A DNA stretch of 33,444 nt from NCBI GenBank assembly GCA_949289145.1, contig CASEML010000157.1, positions 1 through 33,444 of the forward strand, given 5' to 3'. The position numbers and the translations under genes were made by a program. Position 1 is the first letter of the stretch; every line of letters starts with the position of its first letter. Source of the stretch: an uncultured Eubacteriales bacterium. GTDB lineage: Bacteria > Bacillota > Clostridia > Lachnospirales > Lachnospiraceae. Positions 11,632 through 33,444 of this stretch are shown here, one piece after another. Below the pieces are notes generated by a model that was not told where the DNA came from, did no database searches, and worked only from the letters and a program-made list of their open reading frames with translations.

Positions 11632-12810
11632 TTAATGGTGGAATAATCTGATGCCGGTAAATGCCATCACCATGCCATACTTATCTGCACATTCAATGAC
11701 AAGGTCATCTCTTACAGAACCACCAGGCTGTGCAATGTATTTTACACCACTCTTGTATGCTCTCTCAATGTTGTCTGAGAATGGGAAGAATGCATCCGAA
11801 CCAAGTGTTACGTTTGTATTACCATCAAGCCATGCTCTCTTTTCTTCACGAGTAAATACCGGAGGTTTTACCTTAAAGCGTTTCTGCCATTCACCTTCCC
11901 GAAGTACATCTTCGTATTCCTCCCCAATATAAACATCAATGGTATTATCCCTGTCTGCACGTCCCAGAGAATCCACAAACTGAAGATTTAGTACCTGCGG
12001 TGCCTGACGAAGATACCAGTTGTCAGCCTTCTGTCCGGCTAATCTGGTACAATGTACTCTGGACTGCTGGCCTGCTCCGATACCGATTGCCTGCCCGCCC
12101 TTTACATAACACACCGAGTTAGACTGTGTGTATTTTAATGTGATTAAGGAAATTTTCATATCAATTAAGGCAGATTCTGGAATTTCCTTATTCTTTGTTA
12201 CAATATTAGATAACAAATCACCGTTGATATCTAATTCGTTTCTTCCCTGTTCAAAAGTAATACCATAGACCTGCTTTCTTTCTAATTCTGCCGGCACATA
12301 AGAAGGATCGATCTGGATAATGTTATAATTTCCCTTCTTCTTCTGCATTAATAAATCAAAGGCTTCCTCCGTATATCCGGGAGCAATGACACCGTCAGAC
12401 ACTTCTCTCTTAATCAGTCTTGCTGTGTCAGCATCACACACATCAGATAATGCGATAAAATCACCGAAAGAAGACATTCTGTCTGCCCCTCTGGCTCTTG
12501 CATAAGCACAGGCTAAAGGTGATAATTCTCCTAAATCATCTACCCAGTAAATTTTTGCCAAAGTATCATCTAGAGGAAGACCTACTGCGGCACCTGCCGG
12601 AGATACATGCTTGAAAGAAGTTGCAGCAGGAAGTCCTGTTGCTTCCTTTAATTCTTTTACTAACTGCCAGCCATTGAAAGCATCTAAGAAATTAATATAT
12701 CCTGGCTTACCGTTTAATACCTTTACTGGTAAGTCACTTCCATCTTCCATATAGATTCTGGATGGTTTCTGATTTGGATTACAACCGTACTTTAACTGAA
12801 TTTCGTTCAT
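11632..12810 (-). CDS. purH: Stand-alone phosphoribosylaminoimidazolecarboxamide formyltransferase
   Basis: It catalyses AICAR + 10-formyl-THF to FAICAR, the ninth step of de novo IMP synthesis. The 392-residue product contains only the AICARFT half of the usual bifunctional PurH; the IMP cyclohydrolase half is absent and is supplied by the neighbouring purO. Diagnostic stretches are MNEIQLKYGCNPNQKPSRI at the N-terminus, SFKHVSPAGAAVG with the catalytic Lys-His pair, and the C-terminal GSDAFFPFSDNIERA...YIAQPGGSVRDD. The ATG at 12810 follows AAAGGAG; an upstream in-frame extension (to 12876) lies inside purO and is not used. It starts 13 bp after purO and is under the same ZTP riboswitch. 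Confidence 0.95.
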   Translation of the reverse strand: MNEIQLKYGCNPNQKPSRIYMEDGSDLPVKVLNGKPGYINFLDAFNGWQLVKELKEATGLPAATSFKHVSPAGAAVGLPLDDTLAKIYWVDDLGELSPLACAYARARGADRMSSFGDFIALSDVCDADTARLIKREVSDGVIAPGYTEEAFDLLMQKKKGNYNIIQIDPSYVPAELERKQVYGITFEQGRNELDINGDLLSNIVTKNKEIPESALIDMKISLITLKYTQSNSVCYVKGGQAIGIGAGQQSRVHCTRLAGQKADNWYLRQAPQVLNLQFVDSLGRADRDNTIDVYIGEEYEDVLREGEWQKRFKVKPPVFTREEKRAWLDGNTNVTLGSDAFFPFSDNIERAYKSGVKYIAQPGGSVRDDLVIECADKYGMVMAFTGIRLFHH

Positions 12811-12823
12811 ATTCGTACTCCTT

Positions 12824-13537
12824 TTATTTATTCTTGTTAATGATTCTTGTTTCATAATTGCCTGTTGCAATGTCAATATATCTTACAAATAAAGATACTT
12901 TATTATCTTCATTTAAGCTTGTCCATACTAAGTCAGTAAATTCATCAATATTATCTGAAATTTCTACCAATTTTGGTTCTCCTTCAAAACTTGGAAGTGG
13001 ATTTCCGTCATGCATATAAGTATGAATGAAATGTCCTTCTCCTGCTACCGGCTTATCATAGGTAAATGTATAACGATTACAACATTCAGGATTGCCATTG
13101 CTACTCTTTAAAATAGACATGGCATAATCATAATGTCCGCCTTCTACATGCATTACGCCAGAAATTCTCGGTGTGTAGTTTGGAGCATCCGGTTCAAATT
13201 CACGGCATCTTAAAGACTGTTCAAAAGTAAGTTCCTTATCCATTCCTTCATAAATTGTGTCCGTCTGGTCGCCGTTTGTCACGATAGTTCTGTTTCCTAA
13301 AACTCTTACTGGTGCATAAATGATAAGACTTGGATCTTCTAGTTTAGACGGATCAAAAGCTTCTGTACGGATTCCCTGTCCTTCTTCCACAAATACGCGA
13401 TTTCTGCTGTTTGAACTTCTTCCCATAATAAAATATGCTGTCACTGCCTTTTTGCCGTCTTTTGACTTGCCAATTACAATACCACGTCCCGGGTATGCAT
13501 TGTTTTTCAGTTCCTGTTCCAATGATAACATTTCCAT
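12824..13537 (-). CDS. purO: IMP cyclohydrolase, PurO type
   Basis: The final step of IMP synthesis, closing FAICAR to IMP. The 237-residue product belongs to the PurO-like family first defined in archaea rather than to the N-terminal domain of bacterial PurH. It shows YPGRGIVIGKSKDGKKAVTAYFIMGRS near the N-terminus, RNRVFVEEGQGIRTEAFDPSKLEDPSLIIYAP, and a later NGDQTDTIYEG. The ATG at 13537 has GGAGG seven nucleotides upstream; the reading frame extends further 5' but only into the riboswitch terminator. It is the first gene of the operon with AICAR formyltransferase, which together rebuild the PurH function from two proteins. Expression is gated by the ZTP riboswitch just upstream. Confidence 0.93.
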   Translation of the reverse strand: MEMLSLEQELKNNAYPGRGIVIGKSKDGKKAVTAYFIMGRSSNSRNRVFVEEGQGIRTEAFDPSKLEDPSLIIYAPVRVLGNRTIVTNGDQTDTIYEGMDKELTFEQSLRCREFEPDAPNYTPRISGVMHVEGGHYDYAMSILKSSNGNPECCNRYTFTYDKPVAGEGHFIHTYMHDGNPLPSFEGEPKLVEISDNIDEFTDLVWTSLNEDNKVSLFVRYIDIATGNYETRIINKNK

Positions 13538-13582
13538 TTTGTACCTCCAGATTTTTATTGTTTGTAATGCTTTTTGACACAG

Positions 13583-13624
13583 AAAAAACCGCCTGAGCGC
13601 ACTCATCTGTGTCTGCCCAGGCGG
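13583..13624 (-). terminator. Riboswitch-controlled terminator (ZTP expression platform)
   Basis: Minus strand: CCGCCTGGGC (13624-13615) pairs over 10 bp with GCTCAGGCGG (13598-13589), followed by TTTTTT (13588-13583). The 5' arm is the conserved 3' segment of the ZTP aptamer, so ligand binding and terminator formation are mutually exclusive: ligand turns the operon on. Confidence 0.93.
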
Positions 13625-13696
13625 TCGGCTTAATCTCGTGCATACACTCCCTGTAGGTCATCCTACCCAGGTCACCCTGTTTCCGCCAGTCGTGTA
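13614..13696 (-). ncRNA. ZTP/ZMP riboswitch (pfl motif)
   Basis: Read on the minus strand it has every pfl landmark: CGACTGGCGGAA at the 5' side (from 13692), the GGTAGG/CCTAC hairpin followed by AGGGAG, then CCGACCGCCTGGGCA at the 3' side (ending 13614). It senses ZTP or ZMP (AICAR nucleotides), which accumulate when 10-formyl-THF runs short. The operon it controls consumes AICAR, a direct feedback fit. Confidence 0.97.
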
Positions 13697-13707
13697 CTCT
13701 ACTTACT

Positions 13708-26033: not shown

Positions 26034-26792
26034 TTACTTTTTTGCAATAATTAGGTATCGATGAATTGTTCCTTCAATGCTTCCGTCTTTATCAATAATC
26101 TCTTGCATTTTCAATAACTGTTCAAAACATTTATCTACTGAAAAATTCGGAAACTCCCATTCAATGATATGAGCAAACCAAACAAATGCTCCTACATCGT
26201 AAAATTTTATAGGACGATATGCTTCTTCAGCCTTAACAATTTTAAATCCAGCATCTTCAAAATTCTTACACTGCTCCACAAGGTTTAAGTAAGGAAATGG
26301 TATATCTGTCCCAGGCAGCACCATTTCAACTAAATCTCGCTCGTTATCACCGCCTACTTGTTCCGTAATAAACATACCATTATAGCGTAATAACCTAAAT
26401 AACTCCCTTGCATCAAAATTACCATGTCTATTAATAACCAAATCAAATGTTTCATCTTCAAATGGAATTCGAGATGGATTATTACATTCCTTGAAATTAA
26501 TTCCTAGCGGTAACAATTTATCACTACACAACTCGACATTTGGTGGATAGCCTTCTGTTGCGGAAGTTTTGTCATATGGATGATTTAAGGATAGTAAAAA
26601 TTCGCCACCACCTGTATCATAATCCATAATATTCAAATTACTTTTTAGATACTTTCTAACTAACTTTTTATAATTCCATGGCAAATCATTTTCCTCGTCG
26701 TATCTCCCATGAATATGCGAAAAATCCCAACCATGAATACGTGCTATTTCCTCTTCTTGTTTCCAAATGGTTTTTAAATAATCTTTATTCAT
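26034..26792 (-). CDS. Class I SAM-dependent methyltransferase
   Basis: A 252-residue cytosolic methyltransferase with motif I as LNIMDYDTGGGEFLLSL (the GxGxF-type SAM loop, residues 53-69), an acidic residue after strand 2 (ATEGYPPN), motif IV FEDETFDLVINRH and motif V-like LFRLLRYNGMFITEQVGG. The N-terminal region (KTIWKQEEEIARIHGWDFSHIHGR) resembles small-molecule or antibiotic-type methyltransferases rather than RNA or DNA enzymes; the substrate is unknown. GAAAGGAAA precedes the ATG. A possible leader peptide and large hairpin separate it from its promoter, an arrangement often seen with inducible resistance genes. Confidence 0.85.
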   Translation of the reverse strand: MNKDYLKTIWKQEEEIARIHGWDFSHIHGRYDEENDLPWNYKKLVRKYLKSNLNIMDYDTGGGEFLLSLNHPYDKTSATEGYPPNVELCSDKLLPLGINFKECNNPSRIPFEDETFDLVINRHGNFDARELFRLLRYNGMFITEQVGGDNERDLVEMVLPGTDIPFPYLNLVEQCKNFEDAGFKIVKAEEAYRPIKFYDVGAFVWFAHIIEWEFPNFSVDKCFEQLLKMQEIIDKDGSIEGTIHRYLIIAKK

Positions 26793-27011: not shown

Positions 27012-27195
27012 CTGTTCCTTCAAAAATCCAGCGAAAAAGAGGTAGAAGTTTAACCTGTTAGTACCCATGACAGTCAGTTTGCATTTATGCTGCCTCTGCC
27101 TTGAGGGGACGAATTGATATCACTTATAAGCGTATGGAGAAGCAATAAAGCTAAACTGTCTAATCTCCGTTCACTGCCCTTAATTCTATATGATC

Positions 27196-27771
27196 CTATA
27201 TAAATCCTAAATGGCTTAACAGAATTCTAATTCCCAGCAAGTTCAGAATCAGTCCTCCTGCAAATTCCGCCTTATTTTTATATTTATTTCCAAAGAAATT
27301 CCCCACATACACCCCACATATGGAAATGACAAATGTGGTGACTCCAATAATCGATATAGCTTCCATAATGGGATAATTAAGAAATGCAAAGGTAATACCT
27401 ACTGCCAAGGCATCTATACTGGTAGCAACTGCTAATATAAATAAGTCCCTGATATTCAGTGGTGTATCATACTGGTCTACTGTTACATCTTCCTTACATT
27501 TTATTGCTTCCACAATCATCTTTCCGCCAATAAAAGCAAGGAGTGCAAAAGCTACCCAATGGTCAATACTGGTTATGTACTGTTCAAACTGACGTCCCAA
27601 TAACCAGCCGATCAACGGCATCAATGCCTGAAATCCGCCAAAAAACAGTCCTATGACTGCCGCCTGCTTTTTATTGACTTTACTCATTCCTAAACCCTTG
27701 CAGATGGACACCGCAAATGCGTCCATTGCCAAACCGATTCCCATGAAAAATAGTTCAAAAAAAATTGTCAT
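27196..27771 (-). CDS. mntP: Manganese efflux pump MntP
   Basis: A 191-residue inner-membrane protein with six predicted helices that exports excess Mn2+. The conserved acidic motifs are present: GLAMDAFAVSICKG (helix 1) and ATSIDALAVGITFA (helix 4), with intervening FGGFQALMPLIGWLLG. The length is typical. AAGGAAAAACAC precedes the ATG. The gene is preceded by a long leader carrying a yybP-ykoY Mn2+ riboswitch with a terminator, which independently supports the function. Confidence 0.96.
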   Translation of the reverse strand: MTIFFELFFMGIGLAMDAFAVSICKGLGMSKVNKKQAAVIGLFFGGFQALMPLIGWLLGRQFEQYITSIDHWVAFALLAFIGGKMIVEAIKCKEDVTVDQYDTPLNIRDLFILAVATSIDALAVGITFAFLNYPIMEAISIIGVTTFVISICGVYVGNFFGNKYKNKAEFAGGLILNLLGIRILLSHLGFI

Positions 27772-27879
27772 GTGTTTTTCCTTCTTTCTCCTAATTGGGA
27801 GTGCGTTTGTTTATAGCGTGAGACAACTGTCTCTTAACATAAACAATAGAACGTATGCTTTGCGGCTTTCTATTATCAT

Positions 27880-27987
27880 AAATAAAATAATAAAAGACTC
27901 GTGTATACTTTATTATATACTTTATGCAATGATATCTTGACACCATTCCATAAAGTATATGATTATTTTAAAGTATACATGAGTCTT
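27880..27987 (-). terminator. Long terminator hairpin of the Mn2+ riboswitch
   Basis: The arms AAGACTC...(27987 inward) and ...GAGTCTT (27900-27894) form a long imperfect stem: a 7-bp end, one mismatch, an 11-bp run (TGTATACTTTA with its complement), then a further stem around ATAAAGTATAT. On the minus strand it is followed by a T-rich tract (27893-27880). The 5' arm begins within the 3' strand of the aptamer's P1 helix, so the two structures exclude each other. Confidence 0.8.
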
Positions 27988-28066
27988 GTTCTTTAAGATT
28001 TGCCAGATGAATGATCATCAGCATGTTGACAAACCACGATATACGCAAACTACTCCCTCACGGTAA
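27979..28066 (-). ncRNA. yybP-ykoY manganese riboswitch
   Basis: Read on the minus strand, the aptamer begins CCGTGAGGGAGTAG (28063-28050) with the diagnostic GGGAGTAG. P2 is TTTGC/GCAAA, and it closes with AACAAGACTCAT (about 27991-27980), whose CTCAT pairs with GTGAG to form P1. The GGGAGTAG...AAGAC pair is the hallmark of yybP-ykoY RNAs. Upstream of mntP, Mn2+ binding is expected to stabilise P1, prevent the terminator and switch efflux on. Confidence 0.85.
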
Positions 28067-28097
28067 ATTTATTTACTTATGTGTTGTGTGAGCTTTC

Positions 28098-28126
28098 ATT
28101 GTACAGGAATATAAGGTTTTTGTCAA
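28098..28126 (-). promoter_or_regulatory. Promoter of mntP and its riboswitch
   Basis: Minus strand: perfect TTGACA (28126-28121), 17-nt spacer, TACAAT (28103-28098), about 30 nt before the aptamer. Confidence 0.85.
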
Positions 28127-28159
28127 CTATGCCACTTACTTTCACAGTATTTTGGTTAG

Positions 28160-29350
28160 TTATGGTGAGAAATCAGAACGCATCCTCTTATAGTGCAAGG
28201 CACATAGGATAAGTGTTAACGGAAAAATTTCTGCTGTCAGCAATCCAATTTTAAGATTGTCTGCAAATACTCCTGAGACCACTCCAACCAAAGTAGGACC
28301 TCCTGAGCAGCCCAAATCTCCTGCCAAAGCAAGCAAGGCAAACATAGCAGTTCCCCCTTTTGAAAATTTTTCAGATGCAATGCTGAATACCCCCGGCCAC
28401 AACACTCCTACAGATAAACCGCAAAGCCCACAACCCACTAGTGATATTGCAGGTACCGTGCAAAATGAGGTTAAGAAATATGCTATCATACATAAAATGC
28501 CGCTTACGATAATAAACGTAAGCAAATCTATTTTCTCACCAGTCTTTGCATAAAAAGTCCTCGCACTTCCCATCAAAACAGAGAACATACAGGGACCTGC
28601 CAGATCACCTATGATTTTTGATACTCCCAATCCGCTTTCTGCAAATGCAGAAGCCCACTGACTCATAGCCTGTTCCGCTGCCCCGGCACAGAACATTAAT
28701 AACATAAAAATCCAGAATGTTTTCTGAGAACATAGAACTTTTACCGACATAGCTTCTCCGTCTTCCATGAGCGTGGATATAGGGACTTTTGCAAAGAACA
28801 GTGTATTTACTAAAGGAAGAATTGCCCATAGTAAAACAAGAGTTTTCCAGTGTTCTTCTCCTGCAACTCTTAAAAATACGGTTGAAACCAATACAACAGC
28901 CACTGTACCCCAGCAGTAAAATGAGTGCAATAAACTCATAATGGAAGCTTTGTTTTTTGTTGGACAAGCTTCCACAATAGGGCTGATCAACACCTCAATT
29001 AAACCACCGCCAATCCCATAAAGAACCGCCGCCATAAATAATGCAATAAATTTATCCGGAATAATTTCTGGAAACACTGCCATTCCTATAAGACCTGCCG
29101 CTGCAAAAACATGAGCACCAAGAATACACTTTCTATACCCTATTTTATCCACAAATTTTGCAGACAACATATCTATCAGTAACTGTATCATAAAATTGAC
29201 AGTAATTAATAATGTAATTTTCTCTAAAGAAATTCCCAGTGAATTTTTAAAAATCATAAAAAGTAATGGTGCAAGATTATTAACTATTGCCTGAGTAATA
29301 TACCCAAGATAACTTGCATATATGGTATATTTATAATTTGTAGTCAACAT
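28160..29350 (-). CDS. Major facilitator superfamily transporter
   Basis: A membrane protein of about 396 residues with roughly 12 transmembrane helices. An MFS-type loop lies between helices 2 and 3 (AKFVDKIGYRKCILG, the GxxxDrxGrr equivalent), a pattern recurs in the second half, and a polar central loop follows helix 6. The best ATG is at 29350; a TTG at 29362 lies too close to GGAAGG to be an ideal start, and the ATG is about 14 nt from it, so the start is uncertain. The substrate is unknown; the overall look (GGGLIEVLISPIVEACP, GLCGLSVGVLWPGVFSIASE) resembles sugar or drug MFS carriers. It is the last gene of the five-gene unit, 38 bp after the MATE gene. Confidence 0.9.
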   Translation of the reverse strand: MLTTNYKYTIYASYLGYITQAIVNNLAPLLFMIFKNSLGISLEKITLLITVNFMIQLLIDMLSAKFVDKIGYRKCILGAHVFAAAGLIGMAVFPEIIPDKFIALFMAAVLYGIGGGLIEVLISPIVEACPTKNKASIMSLLHSFYCWGTVAVVLVSTVFLRVAGEEHWKTLVLLWAILPLVNTLFFAKVPISTLMEDGEAMSVKVLCSQKTFWIFMLLMFCAGAAEQAMSQWASAFAESGLGVSKIIGDLAGPCMFSVLMGSARTFYAKTGEKIDLLTFIIVSGILCMIAYFLTSFCTVPAISLVGCGLCGLSVGVLWPGVFSIASEKFSKGGTAMFALLALAGDLGCSGGPTLVGVVSGVFADNLKIGLLTAEIFPLTLILCALHYKRMRSDFSP

Positions 29351-29388
29351 AAAGATGCTCAATTCCTTCCCTAAATTGGGGTATCATA

Positions 29389-30735
29389 CTATAATTGCTG
29401 TGCTATGTTTCTCATCCAGCGTTTCGATCGAAAAACATAAATCCCCAATATGACTCTTACATATTCTTCCAACGATAAAATAAAATACACATAGTAAATG
29501 GGCAGCTGCAATACATAAGCAGCGACAATTCCTAATGGTACACCGATAAGCCATGTGCCAATCATGTCGATTATCATAATATATTTTGTCTGTCCACCGC
29601 TTCTTAATACACCGCCACCAAGAACCATGTTGACTACCTTAGCACAAAATACAAGTGAATATGCGTGTAATATGTATATAGTAACATTTCTTGTATCCTG
29701 GCTTACATTGTATAATTTTACATAATATCCTGCTAAAGCGCTGATTACCACACCAATACATATTGCTGCTAATACCGTCATTTTTACAAAGCTTGTAGAT
29801 TCCTCATATGCCTTATCATACTTTCCAGCTCCAAGGGATTCCCCCACAATAATTCCGGCAGATGCAGAAAGTCCTGACAACGCACCTATTGCAATAGTTT
29901 GAATAGGATAGGTCAATGTCATTGCCGCACAGGCTTCCGTTCCAATATGTCCATAAATTACTGCATATACGTTTTCGCCAAGGCTCCATAAAAATTCACA
30001 TAATAAAATAGGTGCGAGAACGTAGCAGATTTTTTTTACAAAACTTTTCTCAAAGGTAAATGTAAATTTTAATTGGATTTCTTTCTGCTTCTTAATTTTC
30101 CAAAACAGCCCAATAATGATTCCAAGCTCAATAATTCTTGAAACACTGGTTGCCAACGCTGCTCCAGCTACATTCATTTTAGGAAAAATTCCCACTCCAA
30201 AAATGAATAAGTAATTTAATATCGTGTTAGTAATTACCGAAATTCCACTGGCTATTGTGGCAGATTTTGCCGATTCCATATTTCGCAATAGCGAAGACAG
30301 CATCAGCGTAATGGTCTGAGGAATAAATCCCAGTGCCATAATTCTTAGATAAATTGCTGCCTGATTTATAGTAGCATAATCCTCAGAATATAATCTCATG
30401 ATCTGCTTTGGAAAAATTAATGATAACAATATAAATAAAATTGCAACTGCTAACGAAAAATATAGATTACAAAAAAAGCTGTTATTGATTCCTTCTTTGC
30501 TCTTATATCCTTTATACTGCGCTATCATAATTCCGGCTACCGTAACAATGGCTGTCATTGTTACGGTAAATAAAGAAATAAATTTAGCTGCAAGTCCAAC
30601 ACCTGCAATACTTGCACTTCCCAAATTTCCAATCATAATCTGATCAATAAGAGTTAATGCTGCCTGCAAAAGACTTTGTATAGTAATCGGAAATGCAACT
30701 GTTTTTATATTTTGGTAAAATTCTTTTTTATCCAT
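29389..30735 (-). CDS. MATE family efflux transporter
   Basis: A 448-residue cation-coupled multidrug/toxin exporter with 12 helices in two MatE halves. The N-terminal half has TIQSLLQAALTLIDQIMIGNLGSASIAGVGLA, with the family's DQIMIG motif, and the second half begins near residue 235 with LAPILLCEFLWSLGENVYAVIYGHIGTEACAA. Its ATG overlaps the stop of the AAC(3)-family gene as TAATG, so the acetyltransferase and exporter are translationally coupled. That coupling suggests that the acetylated compound, or the same drug, is exported. Confidence 0.95.
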   Translation of the reverse strand: MDKKEFYQNIKTVAFPITIQSLLQAALTLIDQIMIGNLGSASIAGVGLAAKFISLFTVTMTAIVTVAGIMIAQYKGYKSKEGINNSFFCNLYFSLAVAILFILLSLIFPKQIMRLYSEDYATINQAAIYLRIMALGFIPQTITLMLSSLLRNMESAKSATIASGISVITNTILNYLFIFGVGIFPKMNVAGAALATSVSRIIELGIIIGLFWKIKKQKEIQLKFTFTFEKSFVKKICYVLAPILLCEFLWSLGENVYAVIYGHIGTEACAAMTLTYPIQTIAIGALSGLSASAGIIVGESLGAGKYDKAYEESTSFVKMTVLAAICIGVVISALAGYYVKLYNVSQDTRNVTIYILHAYSLVFCAKVVNMVLGGGVLRSGGQTKYIMIIDMIGTWLIGVPLGIVAAYVLQLPIYYVYFILSLEEYVRVILGIYVFRSKRWMRNIAQQL

Positions 30736-31535
30736 TATTCATGCCTCTTATTTCTATTTTTTTCAATCCATTTTACTGCAAAATCAACAATTCCTCTCTG
30801 ATTCATGCATGTAACAGTTGCATTGCCAATATGGACTTTATTTACATTCATTGCTGCTTCAAAGGCTTCTCCTATCAGTTTAAAATCTTCTCCATCAACA
30901 ACAAGTGTTTCATATGTTACCCACTGTCTTTTTCCCTCCACCATCATGGCGCTACTTTCATTTGCATACCTCTTTCCCGGATAATCTGCTCTTACATCAG
31001 CCAGATGAAGGGAGGTATTCTTGTCATGTCCTACTCCAATAAGAAGAACTTTTCCATCTAGTGCATATAACTTTCCAAGAGGTGATTTTTCGCCGAAAAT
31101 ATCACTCAAATCATGATCTTTTACTAAATATTCTGCATTCTTTCCTTTTGCGGCAAAAGAGCGGGCCGGATGGGCACTTCGCTTTGCACCGGGCCATTTT
31201 CGAAACATTTCAGCAACTGCCCCCATGGTATTTGTAGGAGTAATGTCTTTATCATATGCAGGCCAGTTATCTCTAATCATCTGCCACCATTCTTTTGGTT
31301 CCTCCCAATGAACCCCCGCCTCAGGATCTAAATTTTTCCAGCTTTGAGATGGCATTATAATAGTTCCACTATCCTTAACTGTTTCAAGGAGTGCCTCTAT
31401 AACAATCTGGGAACCTCCACATACAAACCCTAAACTGCTAAGTGATGTATGTACAATGACATTATCACCTTCTTTTAATCCCAGCTTTTTAAATCCTTCT
31501 TTTAAATCTTCTTTAAGAACTATTTTTCTTTCCAT
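30735..31535 (-). CDS. AAC(3) family N-acetyltransferase
   Basis: A 266-residue member of the aminoglycoside 3-N-acetyltransferase / YokD family, which uses acetyl-CoA. Diagnostic stretches are DNVIVHTSLSSLGFVCGG, GTIIMPSQSW, DITPTNTMGAVAEMFRKWPGAKRSAHPARSFAAKG, SPLGKLY and GVGHDKNTSLHLAD with the catalytic His. The start is ATG 31535, eight bases after AGGAGG; ATG 31541 is too close. Family members in Firmicutes acetylate aminoglycosides or unidentified amines, so resistance is possible but the substrate is not proven. It sits 17 bp after the RibD_C gene and overlaps the MATE gene. Confidence 0.92.
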   Translation of the reverse strand: MERKIVLKEDLKEGFKKLGLKEGDNVIVHTSLSSLGFVCGGSQIVIEALLETVKDSGTIIMPSQSWKNLDPEAGVHWEEPKEWWQMIRDNWPAYDKDITPTNTMGAVAEMFRKWPGAKRSAHPARSFAAKGKNAEYLVKDHDLSDIFGEKSPLGKLYALDGKVLLIGVGHDKNTSLHLADVRADYPGKRYANESSAMMVEGKRQWVTYETLVVDGEDFKLIGEAFEAAMNVNKVHIGNATVTCMNQRGIVDFAVKWIEKNRNKRHE

Positions 31536-31552
31536 ATTCATTGCCTCCTGTT

Positions 31553-32206
31553 CTATACTTTCACATAATTGTCTATTGTTACGTTCCCTCTGAGTTCAAC
31601 ACGCTTTAAAGTAAATTTCTTTGCAAACTTACATTCTGTATATCCTTCTCCGTCTACCAGTGATACATTGTCTTTTCCGCCGATGATAATGGGAAGCCTT
31701 ATTATTATAATTTCACTTACCATGTTTTTATCAATTAGTGTCCAATTTAAAGTACCTCCACCTTCCAGCATGATAGTATGTATTTCATACTGACTTTCCA
31801 GCTGTGAAAATGCGTTTACAAAATCTATTTTATTCTGCCCTGCAAATACAAATTTTACATTATCATGCATTTGATATATCTTTGTTTTTTCTCTGTTTAT
31901 CTCTGTTGTGATTATTATTGTAGGAATATTATCATTTAATATCACAGCATCTTTCGGTATTTCAAGTTTACTCGTGGGAATGATTCTAATCGGATTTTTT
32001 CCTTTTCCATATCGACAGGTTAAAGAAGGGTTATCATAGCGTATAGTATTCATTCCCACTAGAATCCCATCCACCTTTCCTCTTATTTCATGGATATATT
32101 CCATATCTTCTGTGGAAAGCAAAGAGAAAAGATCTTTGCTACTCTTTCCTTCTCCAAATGTTATTTTACCGTCAATTGATACTTCACTAACTAAACTAAT
32201 TTTCAT
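31553..32206 (-). CDS. RibD C-terminal / dihydrofolate reductase-like domain protein
   Basis: A 217-residue single-domain NAD(P)H reductase with the RibD_C fold: MKISLVSEVSIDGKIT at the N-terminus, VDGILVGMNTIRYDNPSLTCR (the family's GxNTxxxDxPxLTxR signature, about residues 46-66) and IMLEGGGTLNWTLI (about 144-157). In riboflavin synthesis this fold reduces the ribosylamino-pyrimidine; here there is no deaminase domain and no other rib gene nearby, so a modified substrate in a dedicated pathway is as likely. AGGGGA precedes the ATG. It lies 16 bp after the binding-protein-like gene. Confidence 0.9.
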   Translation of the reverse strand: MKISLVSEVSIDGKITFGEGKSSKDLFSLLSTEDMEYIHEIRGKVDGILVGMNTIRYDNPSLTCRYGKGKNPIRIIPTSKLEIPKDAVILNDNIPTIIITTEINREKTKIYQMHDNVKFVFAGQNKIDFVNAFSQLESQYEIHTIMLEGGGTLNWTLIDKNMVSEIIIIRLPIIIGGKDNVSLVDGEGYTECKFAKKFTLKRVELRGNVTIDNYVKV

Positions 32207-32222
32207 ATTTTTTCCCCTTATT

Positions 32223-33281
32223 CTACTTATTACTGTTTTCTACTATCCTCTCTAAAATTTTCTCTCCTGTGTGCCATAAATCATTAATACATTCTTCATT
32301 AACCAAAAAATGATTTTTTTTCATTTGTTCATAACAGATTGTCACATTTTTATCAATCTCCTGTTTATCCATTTGAGCAAGTACCTGTTTATTTACAGGA
32401 ATTCTTTTGTGACTTACCAACCATTTTTCCTGAATTTCTTTACTGAGCATATAATTAATAAATGTGTCAAGCTCTTTCTTTTTTTCTCCCTGCAAGGAGT
32501 TTTCCGGAAAAGCAACTCCTACGGTTGATGAAATACCAACCATATCCATATTTTCTATTTTGGGTAACTGACAAACTCCTATGTCTTCGCCCATTTCTTT
32601 ATTCAAATATTCATACAGCCATTCGCCATTTATCATACATGCAATTTGACCTGACACAAATTTTTCAAGCATGGTGCTAATTGCACTATAAGAGCAAAGT
32701 GTTCCCTGCCTTATAAGATCTATAAGGAATTTTTGGACTTCCTTGGTATTTTCCGTTGTAATTATCACTTTTCCATTTGCTATAGGCTCACCATATATGG
32801 AATAAATAAATGGCATCAGCCAATATGCCACCTGTAAATCCATGGAAAAATTACAAACATTTTCTTTCTTTAACTTTTTAATATCATCCCAGGATTCCGG
32901 CTTTTGGGCAAAATATTTTTTATTGTAAAACAATACTGCATGATTTCCCTGTAAATAAGGTACGCCCCTTTGAATTCCTTTATATTTCATAGCATCCCAG
33001 ATTCTTGTGTCCATATAATGACTATATTTTTCCGGTACCTCTGATAAATTTGCTTTTTCCAACGTAACCATATCCTGTGCAATAAAAATAATATCTGGTT
33101 TTTCTTTTTCTTGCCCTAAGTTTTCCAATTTCTCTAAAAACGGGACTATATTCATCTGCACAAATTTAAACTTAAGATTTTCTTTGTTTTCCAAATCACG
33201 GCATATAGATTCTATAAAATTTAAGCTGCTATCTCCTACACCGTCCATTTCATGCCAAATTATAATTTCTTTGTTTTTCAT
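32223..33281 (-). CDS. Solute-binding-protein-like protein without a signal peptide
   Basis: The 352-residue product resembles family 1 ABC solute-binding proteins: IIIWHEMDG at the first strand, PDIIFIAQDMV, VPYLQGNHAVLFYNKKYFA (the N/C-lobe crossover typical of maltose-type proteins), GQIACMINGEWLYEYL and a helical C-terminal lobe ending in the usual ILERIVENS. It begins MKNKEIIIWHE directly at strand 1, with no hydrophobic signal, no lipobox and no N-terminal Cys. Only 19 mostly polar codons are available upstream before an in-frame stop, so a missed signal peptide is excluded. There is no cognate ABC permease or ATPase nearby. I infer a cytosolic binding or catalytic role; compare SBP-fold enzymes such as the THI5-type pyrimidine synthase. 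It is the first gene of the cassette. Confidence 0.8.
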   Translation of the reverse strand: MKNKEIIIWHEMDGVGDSSLNFIESICRDLENKENLKFKFVQMNIVPFLEKLENLGQEKEKPDIIFIAQDMVTLEKANLSEVPEKYSHYMDTRIWDAMKYKGIQRGVPYLQGNHAVLFYNKKYFAQKPESWDDIKKLKKENVCNFSMDLQVAYWLMPFIYSIYGEPIANGKVIITTENTKEVQKFLIDLIRQGTLCSYSAISTMLEKFVSGQIACMINGEWLYEYLNKEMGEDIGVCQLPKIENMDMVGISSTVGVAFPENSLQGEKKKELDTFINYMLSKEIQEKWLVSHKRIPVNKQVLAQMDKQEIDKNVTICYEQMKKNHFLVNEECINDLWHTGEKILERIVENSNK

Positions 33282-33319
33282 ACCTATATCTTCCTCATCA
33301 TTTACGGTAGTGTCAAAAA

Positions 33320-33442
33320 CTACCTCTTTTTTATTGTTCTAACTTTATTAAAACCTTGATTTATTGGAGGTTTGCAAATAAAAAGAGCATTGACCTCCAT
33401 TTTTTGATATAATATCCGCGACCAAACATCAACCACATCAAA
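33320..33442 (-). CDS. Partial open frame at the right edge, unrecognised
   Basis: A minus-strand frame enters from beyond the right edge and ends at TAG (33322-33320) after 40 codons, including MEVNALFICKPPINQGFNK. It may be the tail of an upstream gene or non-coding leader sequence of the cassette. An inverted repeat (TGGAGGT at 33367-33373 with ACCTCCA at 33394-33400) lies inside it; on the plus strand it is followed by TTTTTT and could act as a terminator for leftward-facing neighbours. No family is recognised. Confidence 0.3.
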   Translation of the reverse strand, partial: FDVVDVWSRILYQKMEVNALFICKPPINQGFNKVRTIKKR

Positions 33443-33444
33443 GG

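Follow-up and report, generated by a model that had tools for sequence, protein, structure and literature searches.

A contig-cut five-gene cassette in an uncultured Lachnospiraceae bacterium and the seven-gene operon to which it belongs

The cassette and the operon around it

The stretch of DNA analysed here (the window) is 33,444 nucleotides long and constitutes contig CASEML010000157.1 (C157) in assembly GCA_949289145.1, an incomplete genome (88% complete, 170 contigs) of an uncultured Eubacteriales bacterium in the Lachnospiraceae. Its last part carries genes for a solute-binding protein (SBP), a RibD_C-type reductase, an AAC(3)-family N-acetyltransferase and two transporters, which a sequence-only reading had described as a single cassette. 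All five open reading frames (ORFs) lie on the minus strand where that reading had placed them, and each protein exceeds the curated Pfam cut-off of the family proposed for it. The features, including the repeat that closes the contig, are:

32223-33281, minus strand: SBP, cytosolic, maltodextrin-binding-protein-like (PF13416/PF01547, 352 aa, without signal peptide)
31553-32206, minus strand: RibD_C-type reductase (PF01872, 147.5 bits, 217 aa), proposed 5-phosphoribosylamine reductase
30735-31541, minus strand: AAC(3)-family N-acetyltransferase, accessory (PF02522, 293.5 bits, 268 aa)
29389-30735, minus strand: MATE family exporter (TIGR00797, 189.8 bits with a cut-off of 147.4, 448 aa)
28160-29362, minus strand: MFS transporter, accessory (Pfam MFS_1, 98 bits; 400 aa from a TTG, with an ATG four codons in)
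33305-33444, no strand assigned: end of a multicopy insertion-sequence-like repeat (99-100% copies on six other contigs, 81% on two more)

The contig stops at 33444, only 163 bp upstream of the SBP gene. In three of the four other genomes from the same genus (G001, G002 and G003) the five genes occur in identical order, downstream of two further genes on that strand, for a zinc-type dehydrogenase (ADH, about 345 aa) and a GH13 protein (632-634 aa); no signal-like start was seen in the GH13 proteins of these three. Neither SBP nor GH13 was found in the fourth (G004) at the thresholds used. The genome of the window has its ADH and GH13 genes on another contig, C21, which ends 144 bp past GH13 in a repeat with copies of 100% identity on five other contigs of the genome. 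The sequence TAGTGTCAA is found at both ends, that of C21 and that of the window, facing inwards. An insertion sequence between GH13 and SBP is the simplest reading of this contig break, and the operon is apparently split there by the repeat in this genome; a search of the genus with just one end of the repeat revealed no complete copy. Judged by the gene order in the related genomes, the five-gene cassette is real, but the contig end cuts it off from the rest of the operon, of which it forms the downstream end. The seven genes are Zn-ADH, GH13, cytosolic SBP, RibD_C, AAC(3)-like, MATE and MFS.

The cassette is tightly packed, with gaps of 16, 11, -1 and 26 bp; the second becomes 17 bp with an internal ATG and the fourth 38 bp with the internal ATG of the MFS gene, which are the distances given earlier with that choice of starts. 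The absence of an internal promoter, also proposed before, is borne out in that promoter-like sites in 27100-33444 are at chance level (21 compared with 26.8 +/- 4.3 in shuffled sequence). Terminator-like sites in the same region exceed chance (9 compared with 3.4 +/- 1.6), but none of the four on the minus strand lies inside a gap between the five genes, and a division of the unit by internal promoters or terminators was rejected. The two hand counts of 16 and 27 G+C per 60-base line are exact. The GC content of the cassette is lower than that of the hem operon, as had been noted (35.5% versus 43.9%), but it is near the 37.3% of the window's first 17 kb and therefore gives no sign of foreign origin.

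The strongest promoter-like site (28126-28098, minus strand) is found beyond the MFS gene, where it might drive separate transcription of mntP. Both mntP and the gene at 26034-26792 were left out of the operon because they are absent after the cluster in G001 and G003; only 1.7 kb remains beyond MFS in G002. The latter gene (minus strand) encodes a 252-aa protein that on visual inspection resembles a methyltransferase; neither Pfam nor NCBIfam gave it a match at E 0.001. Elsewhere in the window, an ordinary ZMP/ZTP riboswitch (Rfam RF01750, 50.3 bits) lies at 13608-13703 on the minus strand, and the ORFs directly downstream of it (12824-13606 and 11632-12876) are purine-pathway-like by eye.

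Conserved core and accessory genes

Within the Clostridia the unit is rare. An SBP search gave matches in 4 of 98 genomes, all from the same genus and including the genome of the window; a GH13 search in 397 genomes from the family gave four (the genome itself, G002, G189 and G404); and a RibD_C alignment detected only 2 of 391 genomes from the class at E 1e-45, one of them the genome itself. A scan of 84,980 species genomes with a GH13 alignment yielded 70 loci, and this count is a lower bound because the search relied on two short peptide patterns. In 43 of these loci GH13 is at least 42% identical (L034-L073, L075, L079 and L093), and these are referred to as the related loci. They comprise nine metagenome-assembled genomes (MAGs) of Lachnospiraceae or other Clostridia, Clostridium cibarium, Clostridium weizhouense and 32 Paenibacillaceae-type records titled Paenibacillus, Fontibacillus, Cohnella, Paenibacillaceae or, once, Bacillus. 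Five of them (L034, L035, L036, L037 and L041) are contigs of G002, G001, G003, G189 and G404, and thus do not count as further evidence.

The related loci display a common set of genes, always on a single strand: ADH and GH13 in all 43, SBP in 42, RibD_C in 41 and MATE in 39. The two loci without RibD_C (L054 and L066) end early at a contig end, L042 ends at 7.7 kb, GH13 and RibD_C are only partial in L093, and L044 has no MATE within 21.8 kb. The commonest order, ADH-GH13-SBP-RibD_C-MATE, is found in 21 of the 43, and in two more with a HAD gene further downstream on the opposite strand. Among 30 Paenibacillaceae loci the distances of the five genes correlate (r 0.82-0.93, 0 of 999 permutations for each pair), which demonstrates joint descent but not function. 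None of the 27 remaining GH13 loci (identity 37.6% or less, several on short contigs) has another of the query genes at E<1e-8. They belong to a wider maltosyltransferase-like GH13 family, 26-38% identical and without the cluster, in records from Spirochaetes, Mollicutes, Bacteroidetes and others (L074, L076-L078, L080-L092 and L094-L103).

The genes are thus found together across lineages and not only in this genome or close strains, as expected for one unit. By gene content, the five genes belong to a conserved set in gut Lachnospiraceae, Clostridium and relatives of Paenibacillus. The composition given earlier needs revision, however: the conserved core is ADH-GH13-SBP-RibD_C-MATE, with ADH and GH13 outside the window, and AAC(3) and MFS are accessories.

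AAC(3) is found in 6 of the 43 loci, every one a MAG of Lachnospiraceae or other Clostridia. Its solved relatives include YokD and FrbF, and all seven AAC(3)-like sequences retain a histidine whose counterpart in chain 3n0s is alanine. MFS homologues occur in seven loci, namely in the genus of the window, in L038-L040 (divergently placed) and in C. cibarium (L043), where the protein is 59% identical. Other lineages carry different additions; neighbours were classed only where recurrent, and only some are annotated. A single-module nonribosomal peptide synthetase (NRPS) lies between MATE and GH13 in seven loci, in two of which a phosphopantetheinyl transferase-type gene adjoins GH13 (one checked with Pfam). 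The one NRPS of seven tested with Pfam has the domains Condensation-AMP-binding-PP-binding and a weak match to BtrH_N. In its C-terminal region of about 550 aa (L051:8168-9895, plus strand; homologues in L057, L061, L068, L071 and L073) the weak BtrH_N match precedes a conserved stretch; the region has no sequence match in the PDB at E 0.1 and may combine a fused acyl-transferring domain with another domain. A HAD phosphatase-type gene directly follows RibD_C in six loci (three checked with Pfam). In two loci, those of C. cibarium and C. weizhouense, RibD_C and HAD are followed by PurF, which scores 492 and 480 bits (cut-off 350) and is in each genome second to a higher-scoring PurF, whereas three other cluster genomes tested have one PurF each above the cut-off. 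Read from these neighbourhoods, the core is combined, lineage by lineage, with different sources of the N-acyl group (acetyl or aminoacyl) and different supply steps (PurF or phosphatase), a pattern that biosynthetic clusters show.

Enzyme features and a candidate pathway

PurF produces 5-phosphoribosylamine, and RibD reduces a ribosylamine to a ribitylamine. The cluster RibD_C is below the riboflavin NCBIfam equivalog cut-offs, with 159.5 bits for TIGR01508 (cut-off 186.45) and 93.4 bits for TIGR00326 (cut-off 156.35); its second-best match, TIGR00227, reaches 149.7 (cut-off 150.15). A riboflavin role is not favoured because a separate full RibD (379.7 bits) is present elsewhere in the genome. 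For RibD of Acinetobacter baumannii, an extract of the published report names the phosphate-binding Arg188 and Arg211, further Lys156, Asp204 and Glu290, and the pyrimidine-stacking Trp174 and Thr176 (PMC3668577). When mapped by eye with the help of the seven RibD sequences that the alignment includes from relatives, the first five correspond to R42, R65, K14, D58 and E148 in the cluster protein. K14, S22, R42, D58 and R65 are present in all 41 readable cluster sequences and E148 in 42 of 42. The Trp174/Thr176 pair, on the other hand, is replaced, next to an insertion with an invariant SSKxLF. This residue pattern is consistent with, but does not prove, a pyrimidine-free substrate.

The binding-fold protein had been called cytosolic, and it is present in 42 of the 43 related loci; no signal peptide or lipobox was seen in any of 43 sequences checked. 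The maximal hydropathy over 12 residues within the first 45 is 0.05-0.98, compared with 1.88 in one MalE-type lipoprotein used as a control. Its predicted fold resembles maltodextrin- and acarbose-binding proteins, with GacH as the top aligned chain. By the numbering and maltose contacts of the maltose-binding protein (MBP), all 42 readable sequences have Trp where they align with Trp230 and Trp340, and the counterpart of Asp65 is conserved throughout (43 of 43).

GH13 is a relative of PDB 1gju over residues 68-571 (E 1e-117); that entry reads maltodextrin glycosyltransferase and is taken here to be the Thermotoga maltosyltransferase. The presumed catalytic residues D372, E401 and D457 (L034 numbering) are intact in all 43 loci. 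ADH is a PF00107-type zinc dehydrogenase that retains its zinc-ligand positions (42 of 43 at one position). Additional alpha-glucan enzymes lie beside 17 of the 43 loci, with 33 GH13 ORFs in 446 kb where about 0.9 would be expected. In two genomes from the genus of the window (L007 and L009, identical to L035 and L036) the cluster is flanked on either side by a large GH13-domain protein with a secretion-like start, and a MalE-type lipoprotein is also nearby, which makes this a starch locus.

The reading favoured here, with modest confidence, is that the seven-gene operon serves the synthesis and export of a small conjugate of an amino sugar or iminosugar, its putative product, which would fit the short biosynthetic pathway with export that had been one of two earlier suggestions and is the best reading of the unit. 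The other suggestion, a self-resistance module, is less likely because other lineages add NRPS, phosphatase or PurF. All of the chemistry that follows, from substrate through ring closure and glycosylation to the product, is put together from gene content, conserved residues and analogy. The starting compound would be 5-phosphoribosylamine from a housekeeping or dedicated PurF, which RibD_C would reduce to 1-amino-1-deoxyribitol 5-phosphate. The phosphate would be removed by the HAD phosphatase of the cluster in some lineages and otherwise by a housekeeping enzyme, after which Zn-ADH would oxidise a hydroxyl so that the amine closes an imino ring. GH13 may then transfer maltosyl units from maltodextrin, and in some lineages the amine would be acetylated by AAC(3) or aminoacylated by the NRPS with its BtrH-like tail. 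SBP would keep the maltosylated product in the cytosol, as a carrier or as a shield for the alpha-glucan enzymes of the cell itself, until MATE or MFS exports it. The product is probably a sugar-decorated sugar mimic acting on starch metabolism.

Known systems and rival explanations

The part of this pathway built on RibD and ADH has a precedent in galactosyrin. According to extracts of the report on gsnABCDE in Pseudomonas syringae, the RibD homologue GsnB reduces 5-phosphoribosylamine, followed by the phosphatase GsnC and the PF00107 dehydrogenase GsnA to give an iminosugar, with reconstitution in vitro (PMC11844564). In its own comparison the same source, as far as these extracts go, calls the RibD-type iminosugar route unique to the Pseudomonas cluster, and it is the only paper with both 'RibD' and 'iminosugar' that a search of the open-licence PMC gave. 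The Firmicutes loci have in common with galactosyrin a RibD-like reductase with a PF00107 dehydrogenase (41 of 43, the other two ending early; on two contigs, split at the repeat, in the genome of the window), as well as a phosphatase in some, a proposed start from PurF-made phosphoribosylamine, and no aminotransferase among the seven genes of the window's unit. They differ in that their core adds a maltosyltransferase-like GH13, a cytosolic SBP and MATE, with AAC(3) or NRPS optional, and in that a phosphatase directly follows RibD_C in the six loci only. The unit is not classified as a galactosyrin-type member because the phosphatase is missing from it in the window and the likeness to GsnA and GsnB is by description.

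Other systems are similar in part. The three-gene azasugar clusters (1-deoxynojirimycin) share a dehydrogenase, a HAD phosphatase in some and an MFS often nearby, but the seven genes of the window's unit include RibD_C instead of an aminotransferase; Paenibacillus is listed among carriers of such aminotransferase-phosphatase-dehydrogenase clusters (PMC8382821). The acarbose clusters acb and gac of Actinomycetes likewise concern a sugar-mimic inhibitor; a secreted amylase (AcbE) and a protein that binds sugars are encoded in them, and GacH, from the second cluster, recognises acarbose homologues (PMC3364876). However, they use the cyclitol synthase AcbC and extracellular binding proteins, whereas the seven genes here include no cyclitol synthase and SBP is cytosolic. 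The kinship with the Thermotoga maltosyltransferase lies in GH13 and its intact catalytic triad, with the difference that GH13 here sits inside a biosynthetic-looking cluster. The earlier reading knew of no such system, and no description of the cluster as a whole was found among titles and abstract starts in the open-licence PMC, a search that is no proof of absence. The RibD-ADH part works as in galactosyrin; its combination with GH13, MATE and a cytosolic SBP, and the occurrence of this set across Firmicutes, did not turn up in that search.

Several observations weigh against the proposed pathway. Its weak points are the phosphatase, missing beside most clusters, and the conflict between N-acylation and ring closure. 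No phosphatase was found among the unit genes in the window, G001, G002 or G003; PurF is in just two and a phosphatase in six of the 43 clusters, and neither is in the unit of the window. A primary amine acylated by AAC(3) or NRPS would no longer close an imine ring, and these lineages may therefore make an open-chain N-acyl aminopolyol, to which maltosyl transfer by GH13 would be conjectural. The BtrH_N match of the NRPS is under the Pfam cut-off (23.8 versus 29.7 bits). At the maltose-contact positions Lys15, Trp62, Arg66, Glu111 and Glu153 of MBP, the residues are not conserved in SBP, which may therefore bind something other than maltose. In a solved pyrimidinone-phosphate reductase (6p8c) the RibD Trp is likewise missing from the corresponding site, so its loss is compatible with a pyrimidine substrate. 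The resemblance to GsnA and GsnB, finally, concerns described enzyme roles and not sequence.

It is unlikely, though the best of the alternatives, that RibD_C reduces another glycosylamine (a ribosylamino-pyrimidine or -pterin) and that the product of the cluster is a glucan-bearing metabolite of ribityl or modified-flavin type. The two best NCBIfam matches and the closest solved structures, which are reductases of the riboflavin pathway, point in that direction. However, no deaminase, lumazine or flavin gene is among the annotated recurrent neighbours (some neighbours being unannotated), the genome holds its own RibD, and the PurF gene in the RibD_C clusters of two genomes argues for phosphoribosylamine itself. 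It is rather improbable that the unit handles an alpha-glucan or amino-glucan in metabolism, as an osmolyte or for storage, with maltodextrins as the substrates of ADH, GH13 and SBP, the transporters exporting surplus and no iminosugar made. GH13 and SBP of maltodextrin type and the alpha-glucan enzymes flanking 17 loci would suit this, but a RibD-type reductase, an N-acyltransferase or NRPS, PurF and MATE are unexpected in glucan catabolism. A drug-resistance cassette, in which AAC(3) modifies and MATE and MFS export antibiotics while the rest are passengers, was rejected as very improbable, for although all three families include resistance proteins, AAC(3) is not found in 37 of the 43 loci (a few contig-cut), scores 215.1 bits against the NCBIfam AAC_3 aminoglycoside equivalog cut-off of 270, and is not part of the conserved core.

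The amino-sugar or iminosugar reading has a bolder form that is tentative and open to considerable doubt. A Firmicute pathway would divert phosphoribosylamine from the purine pathway to a maltosylated iminosugar inhibiting starch- or glycogen-active enzymes, and a maltodextrin-binding protein relocated to the cytosol would hold the inhibitor until export by MATE. This would be an acarbose-like strategy, independently invented, in Lachnospiraceae of the ruminant gut and in Paenibacillus. Strain-named records (Paenibacillus, Fontibacillus and C. cibarium) allow direct testing. If true, the RibD-type, purine-derived iminosugar route would be extended to Firmicutes of the gut and other habitats and linked to alpha-glucan transfer and acylation, which would point to a new source of glycosidase inhibitors and give a role to a solute-binding protein inside the cell.

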